Below, piece after piece: positions 51,510 through 63,708 of a stretch of 64,000 nt of DNA. The DNA comes from Streptomyces sp. 11x1 (GTDB taxonomy: Bacteria > Actinomycetota > Actinomycetes > Streptomycetales > Streptomycetaceae): contig NZ_CP122458.1 in the NCBI RefSeq assembly GCF_032598905.1, positions 62,001-126,000 of the forward strand, written 5' to 3'. The position numbers were made by a program, and so were the translations under genes. Position 1 is the stretch's first letter; every line of letters starts with the position of its first letter. The notes below the pieces were generated by a model. The model did no database searches. It was not told the origin of the DNA and saw only the letters and a program-made list of their open reading frames with translations.

Positions 51510-51623
51510 ATGACCACGCAGAATCTGTACGACATACCCGCGGATGCACCGACCAAGAAGCGGTGCGGTGACAACGCGACGTGTATGACCACCCCGGTCG
51601 CGTTCAGCGCCGCGATCCCCTGA
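51510..51623 (+). CDS. Candidate precursor peptide A (37 aa)
   Basis: The short frame MTTQNLYDIPADAPTKKR continues with CGDNATCMTTPVAFSAAIP. The split into a leader-like N-terminus and a small Cys-bearing core, 153 nt upstream of a radical SAM gene, fits a RiPP substrate. The ribosome binding site is weak. No named family; assignment is by position and shape. Confidence 0.5.
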   Translation: MTTQNLYDIPADAPTKKRCGDNATCMTTPVAFSAAIP

Positions 51624-51775
51624 CGCCTGTCCGATGGCCCGCTGCCGTTCGACCTGGGCCACCGGGCAGGGCGATACCCCCGGTGCGGGACGACTGCCCG
51701 CTCGTGCTCCCCCACGATCAGGTCCCCTGCGCCGGGCCCGCCCACCCTCTGACCACGCCTGCCCATGGAGGCACC

Positions 51776-52894
51776 ATGCATCGACTGATCACCAGTCCGT
51801 TCCTGGGGCAGTTCCTCGTCCTGCGGCCCGGCCACAGCAGCGGCGTGGGCATACCCGAGTCCCGCTACGAGGAACTCCGCGCGGCCGTCACCGACGACCG
51901 ACCAGCCCCGGCCTGGCTGCGCGAGGCGACCGCACAAGCCTGGCAGATGGCTCTCCCCAACAGCGGGCTGCGGGAGGCCGTCCTGGTGCGCGAGCGCTCC
52001 CTGTACGGGTACGCGAAGGCCTCGTGGGAGATCAACCTCGGCTGTGACCACGACTGCGGATTCTGTTACCTCGGCAAGAAGCGGTTCGAGGGCCTTGTCT
52101 GGGACGACAAGGCCCGCCTGCTCGACATGCTGCGGGACGCCGGTGTGCTGTGGCTGCAGATCACCGGCGGAGAAGCACTGATCGACCGCGAGTTCGCCGC
52201 GGCGTACGAGTACGCCACCGGGCTCGGCATGATGATCCAGATTTCCACGAACGGCTCCCAACTCCACAAGCCACGGATGCAGGAGCTGTTCGCGCGGCTG
52301 CGGCCCTACCGGCTGACCGTGAGCCTCTATGGGGCGACCGGCGAGACCTACGACGCCGTGACCCGCAACCGTGGCGCCTTCGACCGGTTCACCCGCGGCC
52401 TGGACGCCTCCCGCGAGGCAGGCCTGCCCGTCCGGCTGAGCCTGATTGTCGCCGAGGAGAACGCTCACGAAGTCGACGACATGGTCCGTCTCGCCGAAGA
52501 CCGGTGGGGCTTCCCGTACAACGTGTTCACGAACATGTCCCCGACGATCAACGGCGAGGCCAAGCCGCTTGCCTCCCAGGCGCAGAAGTACGTGAAGACC
52601 CGCCGCGTCTTCACCGGATGCAACGCGGGCCACACCTTCTTCCACGTCGACCCGCACGGCGTCGCATCCATCTGCAAGATCGGCCGCGACCCCAGCGTGA
52701 ACCTCATGACGGAGGGCCTCGCTGCCCTCCCCCGGCTCGGCGGCATCGCCGAGTCCCTACAGCTCCGCACCGGTGGCTGCTCCGGCTGCTCCAAGGCCGG
52801 CACCTGCAGGACATGCCGGCCGCTGGCCAAGCTCCACCAGGAGGCGGGGGACAACCGATCGCTGTACTGCCAACACGGAGGTTACGGAGCATGA
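51776..52894 (+). CDS. Radical SAM peptide-modifying enzyme candidate
   Basis: The 372-aa protein has CDHDCGFCYLG (Cx3CxxC) near residues 86-95 for the 4Fe-4S cluster that cleaves S-adenosylmethionine. A GGEALID box and a TIM-barrel follow. The C-terminus has the motif GGCSGCSKAGTCRTC and a later Cys, as in SPASM-type auxiliary cluster domains. Such enzymes make thioether, C-C or epimerised links in peptides. Small peptides lie on both sides, and its stop overlaps the 70-aa peptide gene. ATG 51776 follows GGAGGCACC. Confidence 0.82.
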   Translation: MHRLITSPFLGQFLVLRPGHSSGVGIPESRYEELRAAVTDDRPAPAWLREATAQAWQMALPNSGLREAVLVRERSLYGYAKASWEINLGCDHDCGFCYLGKKRFEGLVWDDKARLLDMLRDAGVLWLQITGGEALIDREFAAAYEYATGLGMMIQISTNGSQLHKPRMQELFARLRPYRLTVSLYGATGETYDAVTRNRGAFDRFTRGLDASREAGLPVRLSLIVAEENAHEVDDMVRLAEDRWGFPYNVFTNMSPTINGEAKPLASQAQKYVKTRRVFTGCNAGHTFFHVDPHGVASICKIGRDPSVNLMTEGLAALPRLGGIAESLQLRTGGCSGCSKAGTCRTCRPLAKLHQEAGDNRSLYCQHGGYGA

Positions 52895-54227: not shown

Positions 54228-55365
54228 ATGAACTGGCTACCCCGGGCACAGAGCCTGGCATGTGCGGTTGTACGGCCGGAATCCCGCTGGCACGCGGCCG
54301 TGGCCAACGTGCCGCGCCACCAGTTCGTGCCTCGGTGGTGGGAGGCGGACGGCGGCGTCTGGATGCTGCGCGACGGCTCGAGCGATCTGGAGACCTGGCT
54401 CGATGCGGCCTACGCCGACAAGACGCTGGTGACCCGTGTCGGCCCCTGTCACGCCGACATCGCGGCCGCCGAGGGCGTCGGCATCGTCAGCGACGGCACG
54501 CCTACTTCCTCGTCGACGCTGCCCAGCCTCGTCGTGCGGATGTACCGGCCGCGATGATCGCCGACGGCAACGAGGTGCTCGTCACCACGGGCACCGGCTA
54601 CGGCACCGCCCTGGCCTGTGCCCGGCTCGGCAGCGAGCACGTCACGAGCGTCGGCGTCGACGAGCACCTGGTGACGAGCGAACGGGATCGGCTCGCACTG
54701 ATCGACGAGGCCCCGAGCGTGGAGGTCTGCGACATCACCGGGCCGCTGCCGGGCGAGTACGACCGGATCGTCGCCACGGTGTCCGTGCGGTCTGTGCCCG
54801 TGTCCTGGCTGAAGGCGTTGCGGCCGGGCGGCCGGTTCGTGACGACGCTCGCCGGCACGGGCCTGATCCTCACCGCCGACAAAACCGCCGACGGCGGCGC
54901 CGTCGGCCGGATCGAGTGGGACCGTGCCGGGTTCATGGCCACCCGGCACTGCGCCGATTACGAGCACCCGGCGGACGACCTCTGGAAGGGCGCCCTGGAG
55001 GGCGACGGCGAGGCCACCACACAAGCCGGTACCCGCTGCTGTATCCCCCGGACGCATGGGACGTCATGTCGATGCTCGCACTGCACCTGCCCGGCATCGA
55101 CTACCGCTACGGGCAGGACGGTGAGACCCGCACCGTGTGGCTCCTGCACCCCGACAGCTCGTGGGCCCGCGCCACCGCGACCGGCTTCCTCAACTCCCCG
55201 ACGGTGCATCAGGGCGGCCCGAGGCGTCTGTGGGACGAGCTGGAACGGATCCGCAACCGGCTCAACCGTGAGGGCGCCCTGCCGGTGTACGGGGCGCAGG
55301 CCCGGATCGCCCTGGACGGAGTCCTCACCCTCTCGCGCGGCAAGTGGTCGATGGTTGTGCACTGA
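54228..55365 (+). pseudogene. PCMT-like (FxLD-system type) methyltransferase, two frameshifts
   Basis: Three frames joined in order give one protein-L-isoaspartate methyltransferase-like enzyme. Residues HAAVANVPRHQFVPRWW lie in the first frame (to 54557), TTGTGYGTALACARLGSEHV in the second (54554 to about 55025), and YPLLYPPDAWDVMSM to SRGKWSMVVH in the third (to 55365). The first junction has an ATGA overlap, so a split gene is possible; the second has no such excuse. As written the enzyme cannot be made whole. Related enzymes methylate Asp in lanthipeptide-like RiPPs. Confidence 0.7.
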
Positions 55366-55804
55366 CACCGTCCAGATAACGCGCGGAGCGCCCGATGCAG
55401 GGCAGTTGTTCAGCCGGTTCCCCCTGGTTGAGACTCCCCGCGTCGGGCTTGTTCATCTCAGGCGCGCGGTGCGGAGGGCTTCAAGTCCGGCGGTGAGCCG
55501 GTCCCGCTCGCAGTTCACACCAGGCGCGGGCGGCCTGGTACTGGAGGGTGACGGCGGACTGGTGCTCGCCAACGCCCGGGCGCGTTCCGCCTCGCGGCGG
55601 ACCTCCGCAGACTTTTCGGCGGACGGTGTGGAGCGGCAGCCGGGGCTCCGGCTGCCGCTCTGTCAGCTACCGATCGGCCCAGGAGGCATCCCGACCCATC
55701 AATTCACACCACTAATGAGTGAGTTTCTCAAAATATATAGTGACCTTACTCACTGAATGAGTTGATTTCGTTACCGTAATGGAGAGTTGAGTGGAGGAGG
55801 GTGA
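55366..55804. other. Intergenic with AT-rich promoter region
   Basis: No gene is supported. Positions 55700-55790 are strikingly AT-rich for this DNA. They contain facing motifs ATGAGTGAG (55714) and CTCACTGAAT (55750), with further GAGTGAGT copies at the start codon of the next gene, suggesting an autoregulated promoter. Confidence 0.5.
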
Positions 55805-58375
55805 GTGAGTCAGTCACCGCAGGAAGAAAGCGCTGTCAGCGCGTCCGCAGCACGGACCCACCTGTACTCGCTGGTGAAGCTCGTCGAAGAGGAGGGGCGC
55901 ACCACGATGATCACCAAGCACAAAGTGCGCGCTCTGCTCGCGCCGCTGGACCGGTTCCCCGCAGCCCGGAAGGCCGATGCCTTCCCGGCCCACGTGCTGA
56001 GTACGGCACAAAAGGACTTCGGTGACCTCGTCACGCTGGCAGCGAAGGGCCAACCACAAGTCCTCCTTCGCAACACCACGCCGGTCGCGGTACTGCTCCC
56101 CGCCGACCCTGCCTCAAGTGCCCTCTCGTCCGACACGGCCGCGTACCCCGGCGCGGCGACCGCAGGAGGTGCGGTGAACAGCCAAGGCAACCAGGACCGC
56201 AGCAGCGCGCCGCGCAGGCTCGCCACGCTGGGCGACGCCATCGGTTCCGTACTCACCGACGGCCCGGTCGGCCAAGCCCTGTTCGGGCTGCCCGGCCTGG
56301 ACGCCGCGACGGGCGGTCTGCAGCCGGGCCGGCTGACGCTCGTGGCGGCCGCCCCGAACGTCGGCGGGAGCCTGCTGGGTCTTGCCGCCGCACGGCAGAC
56401 CGCGCTCGTCGACCGCCACACGGTCCTGTATGCGGCGTCGGGACCGAATCGGGACGACATTTTCCGCCGGATCATCTCCGCCGAGACCGGCGGCGACTAC
56501 CCGCGCCTGAAGCAGGGGCGTCTCACCGAGCAGGAGCAGCAGGTCGCCCGGCAGCTGGTCCAGGCGGGCGACCTGCTGATGATCGATGACGGCACCAACT
56601 TGAGGGCCGAGGACATCGCGGAAACCGCGCCGCACATGGAGGGCCTGGCCCTCGTGGTCGTGGACCGCCTCCAGGCCGCCCACAGCGCCCGCCTCCCGCT
56701 GTCCGGAGAGCGTCTCCCCGATGCCTCCCAGGTCCTGGCCGGCCTCGCACGCGCCCTTCACGTACCGGTCCTCGCCGTCGTGGACAGCGACGACCCCACG
56801 CTCCTGGCACTCCTGGACGCCGACGTCGTCGTGACGCTCACTGCGACCGCCGACCTGGGCAAGGTCCAAGTGACGGTCACCGAACGCGACTTCGGCGCGA
56901 TCGGCTCGGCATACCTGCAGCCCGACCTGCTCCACGCCCGCTTCCTCGACGTAGGAATCGGACCCATCGACCGCGCCCACAGCCCGGCGGGCCCAGGGCT
57001 CTCGCCTGCCACTGGCGGAACGGGAACCGCGGCGCTGGAACTGGCCGAAGCCGCCCTTGCCTACACGTCCGGCGGACACCAGGGGATCCCCGCCGCCCTC
57101 ACCCACGAGCTGGCGGCATGGCGGACCGCAGTCGCAGGCGGCGACCAGGACGCCCTGAAGGAGATCCTGCCGTCGCTGCTCCAGGCCGCCGCAGCGGTAT
57201 CGGAGATGCCGGACACTCACGAAGGGCACCGCCTCGCCGCCGCACTGCGGCCCTTCAGCACGCCCATGTCCGCCGACACTGCCGGAAGCGCCGGTCAGGC
57301 CGCTGCTGCCGGTGCCCCTGTGCACGCCCCGGCAGGCAGCGGCCAGGGGCAGGATGACGTAGCGGAAGACGAGGAAGACGGCGAGGACGGTCTGACGCCG
57401 GGGGATGAGGAGGACGAGCCCGAGGGTCACGTCTTCCCTGCTCTGAAGATCCTCAAGGACTCGGTTGGCCGCTCGAAGATGCACCCGATCCCCGTCATCC
57501 GCACCGAGGCGCGCGACAGCGCCCCGTGGACTCTGATCAGCGAGCACATGGACGGTGAGCCCCGCTGGGTCCACCCCGACGTCACCGCCACCCGTGTTCC
57601 CCACATCCGGGCGAACGGCAAGCGGGTACGCCGCGATCAGCTCGACGTGCCCGACTCCTTCGGAGAGGGCGTGCTGTGCCTGATCGACCGCAACGGGTCC
57701 TTCCCCTCCGCCTGTTCGGCCGTTCCCCTCGCTCCGAACAAGCTTCTGCACACCGGCCCGCTCGACGCGTACGACAAGGCCGGGGCCGGCATCTACCTCA
57801 TCGACATCCCGCAGTGGACCCGCACCGACATGCCGCACCCCCTGGGGCGGATCATCGACCGACCCGACGAGAACGGCCACGTGTGGGTCACCACCCCCCA
57901 CATCAAGCAACTGGAGAAGCTCGTCCGGGCAGGCCACCTCGCCGGCATGCCGGCCATCCACGACTCCTGGACCGGCAAGGCCAACGAGTCCCTGTTCAAG
58001 CCCTTCTACGAGGCCACCCGCAAGGCACGCACCGAACTCGTCCAGGCCGGCGGCGAACCCTACAAGGCGTACAAGACCCGGCTGTCCATCGCGCTGCGTC
58101 TGCTGTGGCCCAAGCGTCCCGCTCAGCGGTCCCCGTTCTGGCGGCCGGACTGGCGTATGAGCATGGTCGCCGAGGCCTCCGTCCGGCACTGGACGGTCGC
58201 GTTCAAGGCCGTCCAGGAAGGCCACACCCTTGTCGCGCTGCGCAACGTCGACCAGGCCATCTTCTGGACCCCGCCCGGCACGCCGCCGTCCACGTACCGG
58301 ATCGGGACCGGCTTCGGCGAAGTGAAGCGCAAGTTCGTCCAGTCTGGCGAGACCATCCTCGAAGGTGACGACTGA
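55805..58375 (+). CDS. Tap-like protein fused to Phd-like and DnaB-like domains
   Basis: GTG 55805 follows GGAGGAGGG. The 856 aa divide as follows. Two Phd/YefM-like antitoxin modules at about 12-50 and 64-100 (RTHLYSLVKLVEEEG, QKDFGDLVTLAAKGQ). A DnaB/RecA-like domain at about 155-385 with TGGLQPGRLTLVAAAP, where the P-loop reads PNVGGS and lacks the Lys. An acidic linker at 515-543. A C-terminal part resembling telomere-associated protein Tap, with DRNGSFPSA (628-636), FWRPDWR (778-784) and RNVDQAIF (813-820). Tap binds Streptomyces telomeres and recruits Tpg. The gene overlaps the next as TGATG. Confidence 0.6.
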   Translation: MSQSPQEESAVSASAARTHLYSLVKLVEEEGRTTMITKHKVRALLAPLDRFPAARKADAFPAHVLSTAQKDFGDLVTLAAKGQPQVLLRNTTPVAVLLPADPASSALSSDTAAYPGAATAGGAVNSQGNQDRSSAPRRLATLGDAIGSVLTDGPVGQALFGLPGLDAATGGLQPGRLTLVAAAPNVGGSLLGLAAARQTALVDRHTVLYAASGPNRDDIFRRIISAETGGDYPRLKQGRLTEQEQQVARQLVQAGDLLMIDDGTNLRAEDIAETAPHMEGLALVVVDRLQAAHSARLPLSGERLPDASQVLAGLARALHVPVLAVVDSDDPTLLALLDADVVVTLTATADLGKVQVTVTERDFGAIGSAYLQPDLLHARFLDVGIGPIDRAHSPAGPGLSPATGGTGTAALELAEAALAYTSGGHQGIPAALTHELAAWRTAVAGGDQDALKEILPSLLQAAAAVSEMPDTHEGHRLAAALRPFSTPMSADTAGSAGQAAAAGAPVHAPAGSGQGQDDVAEDEEDGEDGLTPGDEEDEPEGHVFPALKILKDSVGRSKMHPIPVIRTEARDSAPWTLISEHMDGEPRWVHPDVTATRVPHIRANGKRVRRDQLDVPDSFGEGVLCLIDRNGSFPSACSAVPLAPNKLLHTGPLDAYDKAGAGIYLIDIPQWTRTDMPHPLGRIIDRPDENGHVWVTTPHIKQLEKLVRAGHLAGMPAIHDSWTGKANESLFKPFYEATRKARTELVQAGGEPYKAYKTRLSIALRLLWPKRPAQRSPFWRPDWRMSMVAEASVRHWTVAFKAVQEGHTLVALRNVDQAIFWTPPGTPPSTYRIGTGFGEVKRKFVQSGETILEGDD

Positions 58376-58947
58376 TGGCCGGCCCCACTGGCCACGGAGG
58401 ATCCCTGGGTGCCGCCCTCAACGACCTCCTGCGCTCCCAGGTCACTCCCCGCCACCGGCTGTCGTCGTACAGCGCCAAGCACTGGCACGCCCAGCTCAGT
58501 CAGCTCACCGCGACCCACCGCGGGCAGCAGGCCCTGGCGGACGCCGGTCTCCACGTCACGACCAAGACCCTCGTCAACTGGTTGTCCGACGCCGAGTACA
58601 ACGTCCGCCGCAGCTACCTGGACATCATCCACACCGCGTACGAGAACGTCGCCGTCGTCCCAGCCGACCCGATCCCCCGTCACATCAAGCGGGGCCAGTA
58701 CGAAATCAGCGGCGTCGTCAAAACCGGGGACGACGAACGCACCCGCGGCACCGTGGACGCCGCGCCCCTGCGGATCGACGGCAGCAGGGGCAACTGGGAC
58801 GAGATCGAGGAGCTCTGGCTCGCCGGCGAACTCACCGACGACGAGTTCGAGGACCACTTCATCGACGACGTCATCGTTGAGGACATCGGCGAAGGCACCG
58901 ACGGCTGGGAGTTTCCCGGCGCCTCGTATGCCGTCGAAGTCAGGTAA
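58375..58947 (+). CDS. Terminal protein (Tpg)-like candidate
   Basis: The 190-aa protein starts at ATG 58375, overlapping the stop of the Tap-like gene, the usual tap-tpg order. It has an HTH-like region (ALADAGLHVTTKTLVNWL, then NVRRSYLDIIHTAYENV) that aligns by eye with the N-terminal HTH of Tpg. A C-terminal acidic beta segment follows (DDVIVEDIGEGTDGWEF), where Tpg also has conserved acidic residues. Tpg primes replication at linear ends and becomes covalently bound. The likeness is moderate; a simple DNA-binding partner is the alternative. Confidence 0.5.
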   Translation: MAGPTGHGGSLGAALNDLLRSQVTPRHRLSSYSAKHWHAQLSQLTATHRGQQALADAGLHVTTKTLVNWLSDAEYNVRRSYLDIIHTAYENVAVVPADPIPRHIKRGQYEISGVVKTGDDERTRGTVDAAPLRIDGSRGNWDEIEELWLAGELTDDEFEDHFIDDVIVEDIGEGTDGWEFPGASYAVEVR

Positions 58948-59106
58948 CACCACGCGGTGAGTTCATGAGAAGCCGCGCCAAAACCCATCCTGGACCCCCT
59001 TGGCGAGTACGCGTCTGCCGCCGCCGAAGTCGCCGTGCACCCGGCGCCTCCTGACTCCCGCAAACGGACCCGCGCCGGGAGCGCGACTCGGCGTTCGGGA
59101 GGCGGG

Positions 59107-59370
59107 TCACCACTCGTCCGTGTCGTCGCCCGCCTCGAGGTCGAGCAGGCCGAGCGTGCGAGAATCGGCTTGCTCGGCCGCTCGCAGCAGCCAGTCGAAG
59201 GTGCGTACCTCGATCCTGCTGTCGGTGAACAGGCGGCGGCGCACCTGTGCGGAGTCCTCGGTGTCGTCCTCACGCCGGAATAGCGCACCCTCGGAATACA
59301 GCCTCTCCACCAGTTGGAGGGCGGCGTGGAGCCAGCCGAGTATCGCGTGTGGGTGCGCGCACCCGAGCAC
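59107..59370 (-). CDS. Hypothetical 87-aa protein
   Basis: A minus-strand frame from GTG 59370 encodes a helical, charged protein (LQLVERLYSEGALFRRE, VRTFDWLLRAAEQA) with an acidic end. Its first 45 bases overlap the start of the plus-strand DUF6233 gene, so the true start may be further in. No family recognised. Confidence 0.4.
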   Translation of the reverse strand: MLGCAHPHAILGWLHAALQLVERLYSEGALFRREDDTEDSAQVRRRLFTDSRIEVRTFDWLLRAAEQADSRTLGLLDLEAGDDTDEW

Positions 59371-59694
59371 GTACGCCCCGTTGACGGCGTCTCGTACGAC
59401 GCCGTGCCCACCGAGCCCCTGGAGCAGCCCTCACCGGTGCGTGAGGCCCTGGGACCGCGCCGACCCTCCGGGTGGGTCCTGCAGAAGCTGAGCGGCGGCC
59501 ACGGGCCCGGCCAGGCTGTCCTGCACGCCCGGGACTGTGACGAGGCGCCAGAAGGCGCGCCGGTGCTGGAGCTGGAGCGCGCCCTGGACGCTGCCGAGAA
59601 GGCTGGCGTCCGGCTGTGTGCGCTGTGCGGCGCGGCGCAGGAGTTGGAGCCGCTGCTGCACGGCTTCGACCGAGGCTTCGACCCAGAGGGCTGA
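59326..59694 (+). CDS. DUF6233-family protein
   Basis: GTG 59326 lies behind TTGGAGGGCGGC. The 122-aa product ends with the DUF6233 signature: VLHARDCDEAPEG, then AGVRLCALCGAAQELEPLL, with His and Cys that may bind zinc. DUF6233 proteins are frequent in Streptomyces accessory regions; function unknown. The N-terminal coiled region of longer members is missing or short. Confidence 0.65.
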   Translation: MEPAEYRVWVRAPEHVRPVDGVSYDAVPTEPLEQPSPVREALGPRRPSGWVLQKLSGGHGPGQAVLHARDCDEAPEGAPVLELERALDAAEKAGVRLCALCGAAQELEPLLHGFDRGFDPEG

Positions 59695-59768
59695 CCATGC
59701 CACTCGAGCGCGCCCACGCACGAAGTCTCACAGGCGCATTTCACCGCGATCGCGTTCCCATCAGCGTC

Positions 59769-59772
59769 CTAG
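59769..59772. repeat. IS701 target-site duplication, left
   Basis: CTAG directly precedes the left terminal repeat and is matched at 61202-61205. CTAG is the usual 4-bp target of IS701-family elements. Confidence 0.85.
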
Positions 59773-61201
59773 TAGGGCTCCGTTACGTCTGTCTGTCGGT
59801 CCTGTTTGGGGGAACGCTGAAGGTGTGGACGCACATGAAGTGAACCGGGCTCGGGCGACGTTGGCGTTGTTCGTGGCTGACGTGTTCGCGTCGGTGCCGC
59901 GTAAGGATCAGCGGGCGAAGGGCGACTGCTACCTGCGGGGACTGATGCTGGACGGACGGCGGAAGTCGATCCAGCCGATGGCGGAACGGCTGCCGGACGG
60001 CAACGAGCAGAACCTGCAGCAGTTCGTGAACCAGTCGACGTGGGATCCGGTGCCGGTGCGGCGGCGGATCGCCCAGCGGATGGTGCCGAGAATCGGCCCG
60101 GAGGCGTGGGCGGTCGATGACGTGTCGTTCCCCAAGGACGGGAAGATGTCGGTGGCGGTCGCGCGCCAGTACTGCGGGGCGCTGGGCAAGCGGGCCAACT
60201 GCCAGGTCGCGGTGAGTGTGCACGCGGTCTCCGACACGGCGTCCTGTCCGCTGCAGTGGCGGATGTTCGTGCCCGAGGAGTGGGCGGACGATGCGGTGCG
60301 GCGGCAGAAGACCGGGATACCGCCGGAGGTCGGGCACCGGGAGAAGTGGCGTCTGGCCCTGGACATCCTCGACGAGCTGGCCGGGTGGGGGCTGGTTCCG
60401 CCGGTGCTGGTCGCCGACGCCGGCTACGGGCAGAACGCCGACTTCCGCGACGGTCTGAGCGAGCGGGGCATCGGCTATGTCGTGGCGGTCCGTTCGGACG
60501 TGACGGTCCACCCGCACGACGTGCGGCCCACCGCCCCGGCGTGGTCCGGGAACGGTCGCAGGCCGCAGCCCCGCTACCGGGACAAGCCGTCCTCGGTGGC
60601 AGCGCTGGCTCAGGAGCACGGACGGCAGGCGTTCACCGAGGTGACCTGGCGTGAAGGCTCCCGCGGGCCGATGCACTCACGCTTTCTGGCGCTGCGGGTG
60701 CGGCCGGCCGGGGTGAGGGCCCGCCGTCTGGCCCAAGCCGCCGCCACTGCCGAGCACGGCCACTGGGACGGTGTCCTGCCCGAGGTGACGCTGCTGGTCG
60801 AATGGCCCGCCGGCGCCGAAGCACCCACCGACTACTGGCTGTCCAACCTGCCCGCCGACACACCGATCACCGAACTGGTCCGCCTGTCCAAGATCCGCTG
60901 GCGCATCGAGCACGATTACCGGGAACTCAAGCACGGCCTCGGCCTGGACCACTTCGAGGGCCGCTCCTGGAACGGCTGGCACCACCACGTCACCCTGGTC
61001 ACCGCCGCCCACGCCTTCCTCACCGAACAGCGCCTGTCCCCAAAAGCCGATACAGCGGACTCACCCTCTACCAGATCCTCGACGCCATCCAGGACCTGCT
61101 GAACTGCTGGACCGGCACCTGCACCACCTGCCACCGCCCCCTGCCCAGAACATCCACCACCAGCCAGAACCCAAGAGCCAGAGCAACCTAACGGAGCCCT
61201 A
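59773..61201 (+). mobile_element. IS701-family insertion sequence, complete
   Basis: The element is bounded by perfect 13-bp inverted repeats TAGGGCTCCGTTA (59773-59785) and TAACGGAGCCCTA (61189-61201), with CTAG duplications outside. It carries one transposase gene. Intact ends and exact target duplication suggest a recent insertion. It landed 9 bp upstream of the RNB ribonuclease remnant's ATG and separates it from its former upstream DNA. Confidence 0.9.
59825..61102 (+). CDS. IS701-family transposase
   Basis: The 425-aa protein (start GTG 59825) is a DDE transposase of IS701 type: WAVDDVSFPKDG (first Asp), PPVLVADAGYG (second Asp) and RWRIEHDYRELKHGLGLDHFEGR (Glu region). After LTEQRLSPK the frame runs into DTADSPSTRSS and stops. 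The usual C-terminal sequence (SRYSGLTLYQILDAIQDLL, to 61191) lies in the -1 frame. The change-over sits on C CCA AAA (61038-61044), a possible slippery site. The core is complete, so the enzyme may still work. Confidence 0.88.
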   Translation: MDAHEVNRARATLALFVADVFASVPRKDQRAKGDCYLRGLMLDGRRKSIQPMAERLPDGNEQNLQQFVNQSTWDPVPVRRRIAQRMVPRIGPEAWAVDDVSFPKDGKMSVAVARQYCGALGKRANCQVAVSVHAVSDTASCPLQWRMFVPEEWADDAVRRQKTGIPPEVGHREKWRLALDILDELAGWGLVPPVLVADAGYGQNADFRDGLSERGIGYVVAVRSDVTVHPHDVRPTAPAWSGNGRRPQPRYRDKPSSVAALAQEHGRQAFTEVTWREGSRGPMHSRFLALRVRPAGVRARRLAQAAATAEHGHWDGVLPEVTLLVEWPAGAEAPTDYWLSNLPADTPITELVRLSKIRWRIEHDYRELKHGLGLDHFEGRSWNGWHHHVTLVTAAHAFLTEQRLSPKADTADSPSTRSSTPSRTC

Positions 61202-61205
61202 CTAG
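61202..61205. repeat. IS701 target-site duplication, right
   Basis: CTAG, matching 59769-59772, directly after the right terminal repeat. Confidence 0.85.
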
Positions 61206-61214
61206 GCTCGGGGC

Positions 61215-61790
61215 ATGAAACGCCGCCGGATGCACCTGTCGGCCGAGGCCCAGGCCGCTCTGCGCACCGCGCTGGAGGAACTCCGCGTGGAGCTGAAGGT
61301 CCCCCTGAGCTTCCCCAAGCGCGTACTCAAAGCGGCCGACAAGGCTGCGGGTGAGGCGCGCTTGCCCGACAAGGACGCCACCCACCTGCCGTTCTTCACG
61401 ATCGATCCGCCGACCTCGAAGGACCTCGACCAGGCCATGCACCTGGAACGGCGGCCCGGCGGCGGCTACCGCGTGTACTACGCCATCGCGGACGTGGCAA
61501 CCTTTGTCAGGGCGGGCAGCCCTCTGGACATCGAGGCGCACGACAGGATCGAAACGCTGTACTTCCCCGATCTCAAGGTGCCCCTGTACCCGCCCGTCCT
61601 GTCCGAGGGCGCGGCCAGCCTGCTGCCGAACAAGGACCGCCCCGCCCTGTTGTGGCAGCACGACCTCGACGCCCACGGCAATCTGACCGACTCGTCCGTG
61701 AGCCGGGCCATGATCCGAAGTCGGGCCCGGCTCGACTACGCCGGCGCCCAGCAGGCCATCGAGAACGGCACGGCGGAGGACGGCGGTCAT
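61215..61790 (+). pseudogene. RNB-domain ribonuclease, N-terminal fragment
   Basis: From ATG 61215 the frame encodes the start of an RNase II/R-type RNB protein: FFTIDPPTSKDLDQAMHLER with the catalytic Asp cluster, YYAIADVATFVRAG, and LSEGAASLLPNKDRPAL. Homology stops near 61790 (ENGTAEDGG). The frame then runs on as Arg/Pro-rich nonsense to 62072, so about half the RNB domain is missing. The IS701 insertion directly upstream also removed its promoter context. Confidence 0.75.
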
Positions 61791-62925
61791 GGCGGCGGCC
61801 GCCACCCTGGAGCCCGCAGACGTCGCCACCCTCACCAAGGACAGGGACATCCCCATCCCGACAGGGCTACTGGTACTGCCGGAGCCGGTCGTGGTGGAGA
61901 ACAGGGGCGGCTCCCTCTCCGACATCCGCGCGTTCGGCTGGCAGTTCGTCACCCAGGACCAAGTCCTGCCCGACGCCCAGTACCCGGGGATCCAGCTCAC
62001 GTGCTTCATGGACCGGGACGGCCCCATACAGCCGGAGTCCTGGCGCCTTGCCATCTCCCAGGCGCGCGCTAACGGGTCACCGCTTCCCCCACTCGTTCCT
62101 GACGGAATCTACGGACTGCGGGCGGACGGAGAGTTGCACCTGCTCAAGGCCCGTCTGCGGGGCGGATCACTGTCCAAGGCGAGACGCGGCGAGCTCATCC
62201 AGCCGCTGCCCGTCGGCCTGGTCTATGACCACGCCGACCGCGTGATCCTCGACCCGGACGCCCAGGTGCAGCAGGCCATCCGGCATCTGCTGACCACGTT
62301 CGCCGCCACCGGCTCCGCCTACGCCGTCGTCAAGGCGTTCGCCGGCGCGGGCCTGAAGTTTCCCCGTCGGATCCGCACCGGCCCCAACAAGGGCGAGCTG
62401 ACCTGGGGCATCCTGCAGCACCACCGAGTCCTGCAGGTTCTGCACAACCCGCGCTATGCCGGAGCGTTCTTCGACGGACGGCGCCGCGAACGCCGCGGCC
62501 CCGGCGGCAAGACCACCAGCCACGTGCTGCCCCGCGAGGAGTGGACCGTGCTGATCACCGACGCCCACCCCGGATACCTCACCTGGAGCGAGTTCGCGGC
62601 CAATCAGACCCGGCTCACCGAACTCGCCGCCGCCCGCGGCAGCGACCGCAAAGCCTCCCCGCCCCGCGAGGGCGCCGCGCTGCTGCAGGGTGTGGTGTCG
62701 GTACGGACTTTCCGTGTACGCCGACATGTGGTCTCCTGCGGCAAGTGCGGCCGCCGGATGACCGTGCGCTACCGGCACCAAAAGCCGGTCTACCTCACCG
62801 GCGTCCTCGCCAACGACAAGGGCGAGTACGTCTTCCACCTGCCCGGACCCGGGTTCGTCCGCCCCGTCATCGGCCGACCTCGGCGAAGCGTCCTGGACCC
62901 CGAATACTCCGAAACGACCCGATGA
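61789..62925 (+). pseudogene. Chimeric serine recombinase remnant
   Basis: One open frame of 378 codons joins unrelated parts. Residues 1-105 are of unknown origin (VVVENRGGSLSDIRAFGWQF, MDRDGPIQPESWRLA). From about 62120 it is the middle of a large serine recombinase (HLLKARLRGGSLSKARRGEL; LQVLHNPRYAGAFFDGRR; SCGKCGRRMTVRYR zinc ribbon). The N-terminal resolvase domain with the catalytic Ser is absent. The zinc ribbon is split by about 15 extra residues, and the end is cut at the IS481 junction. It cannot be an active recombinase. Confidence 0.7.
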
Positions 62926-62949
62926 GGTGCAGTGTGATGACAGAGGTTT

Positions 62950-63708
62950 GGTCTGGGGCCGGTAGGGCCGGGTTCGCTTGTGGGTGATCCCGGCTGTTGC
63001 CATGAGGTCGCGCCAGTCGCGTGAGCGGTAGCAGGATCCGTTGTCGGTCAGCACCCGCTCGACCGTGATCCCGCACTCGGTGAAGAAGGCGTGGGCCCGC
63101 TGCCAGAAGCCGGTGGCGGTCTCTTTCTTCTCGTCGGTGAGGATCTCGCTGTAGGCCAGGCGGGAGTGGTCGTCGACGGCGGTGTGCAGGTAGCTGTAGC
63201 CGGCGCCGGACCGGGTCCTGCGGCCCGCTGCCCGGCCGAGGACCTTGTGGCCGCCGCCGTCGGGGATGTTGCCGAGCTTCTTGATGTCGACATGCACCAG
63301 CTCGCCCGGACGTTCTCGTTCGTAGCGGCGTATGACGCGGCCCGTTGCCCGGTCCAGGTGCGTGAGCCGGGCCAGGCCGTAGCGGTTCAGGACACGGTGC
63401 ACGGTCGAGGGCACCAGGTGCAGCAGGTGGGCGATGCGGGCCGGTCCCCAGCGGCGCAGCAGGCGGACCTTGATGATCCGGCGCTCGGTGCGGGTCGGGG
63501 TGCGGCGCGGGCTGGCGTGCGGGCGGGAGGACCGGTCGCTCATGCCGGCCTCGCCGAGCTGCCGGTAGCGGTCGGCCCAGCGCTGGGCCGTGGTCGGTGA
63601 GACCTGGAAGCGTTCCGCGGCGCGCCTGAGGGGCCAGTGGTCCTCGACCACTCAGCGGGCCAGGCGCAGCCGTCCGGTCTCGGTCAGGGGTGCATTACGG
63701 TGGGGCAC
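62950..63708 (-). pseudogene. IS481-family transposase remnant with nonsense codon
   Basis: GTG 63708 opens MPHRNAPLTETGRLRLAR, and codon 19 is TGA (63652-63654) where a sense codon is expected. The frame then continues as a good IS481 transposase: RRAAERFQVSPTTAQRW (HTH), VDIKKLGNIPDGGG and HTAVDDHSRLAY (DDE strands), LTDNGSCYRSRDW (second Asp). It breaks off after RPYRPQT, before the Glu motif. Nonsense codon and truncation both kill it. Confidence 0.8.

Follow-up and report, generated by a model that had tools for sequence, protein, structure and literature searches.

This study describes a two-gene operon, P1–P2, in a 64,000-nucleotide stretch of the Streptomyces sp. 11x1 genome (the window; 62–126 kb of the 10.54-Mb contig NZ_CP122458.1, in a genome of 10.67 Mb). 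We propose, with a probability of about 0.82, that P1–P2 is an end-patching pair serving a Streptomyces telomere class of its own, in which P1 carries a C-terminal minimal protein-primed B-family palm resembling that of phi29 and P2 acts as the terminal protein; where it occurs on linear chromosomes, the pair probably copies their ends. The proposal was reached by computation, from homology, operon structure, end location, complementarity with the terminal protein Tpg, an associated telomere and a polymerase-like model. The architecture is new and has its own telomere, and the functional kind is already known. Characterized pairs are Tap-Tpg and Tac-Tpc, according to passages of PMC4513846 and PMC8743542; the latter, a 2021 survey, states that both Tap and Tpg are missing from many complete genomes and that for several telomere classes the end-patching proteins are not known. 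The components of the pair, all on the + strand, are as follows.

55805–58375, +: P1, 856 aa (GTG start, 856 codons), with two Phd modules, a DnaB-like domain, a linker and a Tap-related, polymerase-like C-terminus
55826–55972, +: first Phd/YefM-like module, about residues 8–56, limits drawn from the repeated strand-helix pattern of the P1 model
55982–56110, +: second Phd/YefM-like module, about residues 60–102, best Pfam stretch 65–101
56285–56890, +: DnaB/RecA-like domain, residues 161–362
56354–56377, +: degenerate Walker A, PNVGGSLL, without Lys
57335–57427, +: acidic linker, about residues 511–541, seen in the sequence, where the predicted local distance difference test score (pLDDT) is low
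57425–58366, +: polymerase-like C-terminal domain, residues 541–854
57680–57709, +: motif A-like LIDRNGSFPS with D628
58244–58255, +: motif C-like NVDQ with D816
58325–58327, +: conserved Lys K841, C-terminal of motif C (90 of 90 rows)
58375–58947, +: P2, 190 aa, terminal-protein superfamily, AlphaFold2 mean pLDDT 82.7
58474–58650, +: helical region of P2, residues 34–92, four helices in the model, possibly helix-turn-helix (HTH)-like

An earlier sequence-only reading had described an 856-codon frame overlapping a 190-aa gene, with two Phd/YefM modules, a DnaB/RecA-like domain whose P-loop reads PNVGGS without Lys, an acidic linker and a Tap-like C-terminus, and all of these were borne out. 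Both frames exist and share one base (58375); Pfam returned two PhdYeFM_antitox stretches (E 5.5e-11) and DnaB_C over residues 161–325 (E 3.3e-18), and the linker is present. The Walker A Lys of DnaB helicases is replaced by Gly188 in 39 of 39 aligned family rows and is also missing from all five distant relatives examined, and the Walker B Asp-Arg is retained in 39 of 39 family rows. The single other P1 match in the source genome (31% over residues 153–325) is presumably the host DnaB.

The two genes are conserved together, as the sequence-only reading had suggested checking. P2 lies directly 3' of P1 in all 11 plasmid records with at least 80% of P1, and the neighborhood is for that reason not a chance one. 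Twelve plasmid records contain P2 over at least 80%; the twelfth, CP109366, showed no P1 among the 20 matches listed. The P2 profile matched 54 of 343 Streptomyces genomes, 21 of them closely (four of these as fragments only), and many of the remaining matches are proteins of about 200 aa at extreme contig ends, several of them mirrored at both ends. Among 17 loci, comprising 16 fetched superfamily loci and the linear plasmid L006, a long open reading frame (ORF) stops where the small gene starts in 15, the exceptions being L037, where none was found, and L041, where the match lies inside a long frame in another reading. The C-terminal domain of P1 is present in every one of these 15 long ORFs (E 4e-22 to 1e-10). 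Phd and DnaB-like domains occur in five of them (L006, L028, L030, L031 and L042; 758–1455 and 1930 aa); the other ten are mostly 510–619 aa long, one being a 317-aa fragment. Among those ten, the ORFs tested include three with a clear N-terminal HTH (L029, L032 and L039) and one with a doubtful one (L038), and the N-terminus of the Tap model matched two of three tested, both HTH-type relatives, at 77–80 bits, the cut-off of NF047542 being 600. The sequence-only reading had envisaged Phd folds and a dead helicase platform in place of the usual HTH, which fits these two architectures. More widely, the C-terminal profile matched 1829 of 7995 scored candidate proteins; in the best 80 of 293 relatives in named genomes, none has a Phd or DnaB match, and 61 have the small gene at most 200 bases away.

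Superfamily members lie close to replicon ends. In 20 of 22 single-contig genomes among the matches listed, a member was found at most 500 kb from an end, against about 11% expected, at a median of 21 kb (two lengths rounded; G247 left out, its match being a fragment of 25 residues at 256 kb from the end). The known functional kind, a two-gene operon near the ends of linear replicons, describes these loci except in G284, with a member at 4.0 Mb, and G342, with members at 0.9 and 4.9 Mb. The sequence-only reading had named homologues confined to circular replicons as evidence that would speak against it; the opened records with homologues are mostly annotated as linear, and two as circular. In the latter, L004 (CP013744) and L178 (AP028456), such a pair lies about 8 kb and 1.3 kb from a record end, and both are perhaps linear replicons deposited as circular.

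The distribution of the superfamily complements that of Tpg. In scans that scored nine candidates per genome, the superfamily profile (A5) matched 153 of 343 genomes and Tpg exceeded its cut-off in 247; both were present in 68, Tpg only in 179, the superfamily only in 85 and neither in 11 (Fisher p 1.2e-25). The genome lists for this cross-count were compiled by hand, and their totals of 268, 247 and 153 match the program counts. Complementarity persisted when weak Tpg matches were counted as present (p 2.3e-17), and within the branch close to P2 a full-scoring Tpg is missing from 12 of 21 genomes (p 0.004). The superfamily was found in 85 of the 96 genomes without Tpg, and together the two cover 332 of 343 genomes, in which, on the broader view given below, they would account for the terminal proteins. 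The source genome has no Tpg and, with the Tap model, yields only a 35-bit match at model positions 24–116; P2 is its sole superfamily member in the A5 scan. The eleven genomes with neither (G067, G071, G084, G086, G118, G131, G211, G225, G261, G279 and G305) may use Tac-Tpc or another system, or may have circular chromosomes.

A specific telomere travels with the pair. The end of G230, a genome with P1–P2 whose Tpg matches all fall below the cut-off, forms a series of hairpins, with a folding energy that is not distinct from that of its neighborhood (z about 0). Against plasmids it matched nine records, at most about 60 bases from the terminus among the matches listed, and eight of these nine carry P2 (p 7e-10, relative to a rough background of 153 Streptomyces records with any P1 match). 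The outer 140 bases of one such end match the same nine records, the best place of each being its first or last base. Among the 343 genomes, the telomere was found in seven, six of them with P2 (the source genome G000, G010, G023, G217, G230 and G286; Fisher p 1.7e-7); the seventh, G166, lacks P1, and its match was set aside as a degenerate copy. The outer 140 bases match nine genomes, strongly in G010, G120, G217, G230 and G286, all with P2, and in G166, and weakly in G023, G103 and G314; matches of about 30 nt to one generic hairpin in G103, G314 and contig C7 of G023 were set aside as chance. In G217, telomere and pair lie 30 kb apart on one contig. The source genome was not matched by the outer 140 bases; the left end of its contig matches the inner part of the telomere (bases 2–198, for instance, match positions 176–371 of L208 at 80%), so that about 175 outer bases appear to be missing from the assembly. 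On contig 1, the two terminal 12-kb stretches had no repeat in common, nor had the two terminal 5-kb stretches of contig 2, and the hairpins were not found at the right end of the chromosome, so the assembly ends look incomplete.

Alignment of 11 ends resolved four hairpins with 33 pairs, 98.1% of the cells being paired. Two-sided changes occurred at nine pairs, compared with 2.2 in shuffles, and none of 500 shuffles reached any of five measures; the signal was lost when the partners were slid, and helix 1 is near-invariant and little informative. Most loops read TCC on the strand read and GGA on the 3' strand, the GGA loop being common in other telomeres in the passages of PMC8743542 concerned. 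Terminal palindromes, which the sequence-only reading had proposed to look for, are thus represented by a hairpin telomere that, from its association with the pair and its covarying stems, is probably the cognate one. No similarity was detected to the G290 end or to five of six other end sequences, and a 47-base stretch is shared with the G176 end (E 0.012). The G290 end is presumably the archetypal one. The first 180 bases of L028, L030, L184, L185, L186, L188, L195 and L197, from genomes with superfamily genes, are also hairpin-rich and, where compared, unlike the archetypal-like end; these perhaps represent several further telomere classes.

The C-terminus of P1 is, on profile evidence, homologous to Tap. 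Among 16 tap-tpg loci, a profile of C-termini from the P1 family and related proteins matched the canonical Tap ORF at E ≤ 0.001 in 7 and at E ≤ 0.03 in 13, E-values that refer to that small ORF set. An alignment of related C-termini to 14 Tap sequences extends over 207 columns (E 2e-4, probability 46%). The curated Tap model NF047542 was not among the P1 matches at E ≤ 1. In the predicted structure, residues 541–854 adopt a PolB palm fold, a match obtained by re-aligning the top 1000 chains and not present in the first Foldseek rows; of the 50 Foldseek matches listed for P1, those from PDB were DnaB-type, and those from the viral library were helicases, primases or unnamed proteins. The candidate metal-binding Asp residues of motifs A and C, D628 and D816, are invariant in 90 of 90 rows, their register being taken from a colinear alignment of relatives and not from coordinates. 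On this model, the P1 C-terminus is apparently a hidden DNA polymerase.

In the passages concerned of PMC4513846, a 2015 paper, Tap and Tac polymerize though no polymerase motif is visible in either, which a hidden phi29-like palm would explain. Such a palm, which would be a bigger discovery than the pair itself, also points to two Asp residues for mutation. We lean slightly towards a broader view, in which a cryptic and minimal B-family palm that works by protein priming is common to all Streptomyces telomere-associated proteins (Tap, the HTH-type relatives and P1 of the Phd/DnaB type). P1 would then be a telomere replisome in one protein, with the palm joined to Phd modules for recognition and to a DnaB-type platform that is non-hydrolysing, and would serve a telomere class that differs from those compared.

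Mechanistically, internally started replication would leave a 3' overhang that folds into hairpins with GGA loops. P1 may recognize this end through its Phd modules, its DnaB-like platform or both, the platform serving as a scaffold and not a motor. By analogy with Tap-Tpg and Tac-Tpc biochemistry, the palm would then join the first nucleotide to a P2 hydroxyl and extend a short primer, and P2 would remain on the 5' end as terminal protein. The P2 model contains helices 34–46, 48–56, 63–71 and 79–92, followed by strands and two helices; T45, T65 and Y89 are the hydroxyl residues that do not vary across 62 rows and are candidate carriers of the nucleotide, a role that in Tpg belongs to T114 (as given in part of PMC3572947).

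Several observations weigh against the proposal. Tpg is present alongside in 9 of the 21 genomes close to P2, G342 holds the pair internally, and P1–P2 of the window lies about 118 kb from the contig end. The sequence-only reading had called the partner Tpg-like, which failed by sequence: P2 gave no match to the curated Tpg model NF047541, and its profile reached none of the Tpg ORFs tested at E < 1. Pfam and NCBIfam gave no reliable family for P2, and a fold search with its model found no solved relative (best E 0.56). Plasmid CP075613 has the telomere and no P2. Conversely, 4 of the 12 records in which P2 is at least 80% covered have no telomere match, and in two of these, CP109206 and CP107978, both ends resemble that of G290, which fits telomere exchange, yet means that pair and telomere can part. 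Ten places were found in the nine telomere records, with only one end matched in eight of them, which lowered our confidence by 0.01. For the palm, the P1 model has a mean pLDDT of 59 and a predicted template modelling score of 0.38, and profile alignment with phi29 polymerases reaches an hhalign probability of just 1–2%. When P1 heads the alignment, motif A alone aligns (37 columns), and neither the P1 family alone nor canonical Tap alone aligns the motifs; the Tap profile alone likewise gave no colinear match to PolB. Pfam gave no polymerase match to the C-terminus, so that PolB membership is not seen at the level of sequence profiles, a PDB profile search of related C-termini returned chance matches only (best E 0.47) and no polymerase, and searches of the C-terminus and the small proteins against Pfam and PHROGs gave nothing relevant.

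The weak sequence-level link to PolB and the low to moderate confidence of the P1 model leave room for a telomere pair whose C-terminus is no polymerase, a Tap-type tether of similar fold with host DinB doing all the synthesis. DinB1 or DinB2 is required for Streptomyces end patching, according to part of PMC4513846; even so, we regard this explanation as unlikely. Less likely still is a plasmid replication-initiation locus, in which P1 would be a Rep or helicase-loading protein with a DnaB-like ring, P2 a DNA-binding accessory, and the end position a result of linear plasmids donating to chromosome arms. The DnaB-like domain and the many plasmid-borne homologues fit it, as does pRLB1-9.2 (L179:941-4586), where a replicative dnaB directly precedes an HTH-type gene that contains the C-terminal domain and is followed by a small gene, an arrangement resembling the Phd/DnaB fusion in split form. 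However, the P-loop Lys is missing, no iteron-like repeat array was seen in 54800–59900, and an internal origin would not be expected to show Tpg complementarity or association with a terminal sequence. A toxin-antitoxin or defence module, suggested by the Phd/YefM domains and by several public entries named 'prevent-host-death family antitoxin', is highly implausible given the end-located superfamily of P2, the HTH in place of Phd in other partners and the telomere association. The divergent telomere-maintenance, protein-primed pair put forward by the sequence-only reading is supported by location, Tpg complementarity, a source genome without detectable Tap or Tpg, and the co-travelling telomere; the likely polymerase fold, the telomere and the superfamily are additions to it.

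Among known systems, Tap-Tpg, in which Tap polymerizes on Tpg (part of PMC4513846), likewise comprises a large protein and one of about 185–190 aa in an operon near chromosome ends, with a related C-terminal domain. It differs in that the P1 N-terminus has Phd and DnaB-like domains in place of the HTH of Tap and no Tap-model match, P2 fails the Tpg model, and the telomere sequence differs. Tac-Tpc of SCP1 is alike by description, with a terminal protein and a telomere-associated polymerizing partner (passages of PMC4513846). GtpB-GtpA of S. griseus is described in part of PMC7205883 as an atypical two-gene terminal-protein operon whose GtpA is 18% identical to Tpg; judged by description and not by sequence, it is probably the HTH-type branch of the P2 superfamily, whereas P1 has no HTH. 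The pRL2 telomere genes, one protein similar to Tap and a helicase and the other to Tpg, probably belong, again by description, to the same Phd/DnaB-type branch as P1–P2; the PMC8743542 passages on them mention no polymerase fold, superfamily or telomere linkage. The phi29 DNA polymerase and terminal protein resemble the pair in the predicted fold of P1 541–854, the Asp residues of motifs A and C and protein priming; they differ in replicating from the ends, compared with end patching after internal initiation for P1–P2. The phi29 residues before 183, the exonuclease part, lie outside the aligned range. Among the titles and abstract beginnings listed from the open-access literature, none mentioned this telomere, the P2 branch or a polymerase fold for these proteins; papers behind subscription lay outside this scope, so little is shown for print overall. 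Where a branch of the P2 superfamily goes with a specific telomere, telomere swapping between plasmid and chromosome becomes trackable.

Further members of the group were noted. L031:1901-7693 encodes the 1930-aa Phd/DnaB member, which ends 1.9 kb from the contig end and extends the range of this branch to 758–1930 aa. L177 (pSCAT, S. cattleya) encodes the same C-terminal domain by tblastn; pSCAT has a Sg2247-type telomere, for which no proteins are known according to passages of PMC8743542, making this protein a candidate for the missing ones. Within the window, a radical SAM protein gene with no obvious connection lies upstream of the pair (51581–52894), and the downstream region (59537–63651), where transposase-like frames (DDE, IS481-like) lie together with overlapping frames for an RNB-domain protein and a serine recombinase, looks like insertion debris.
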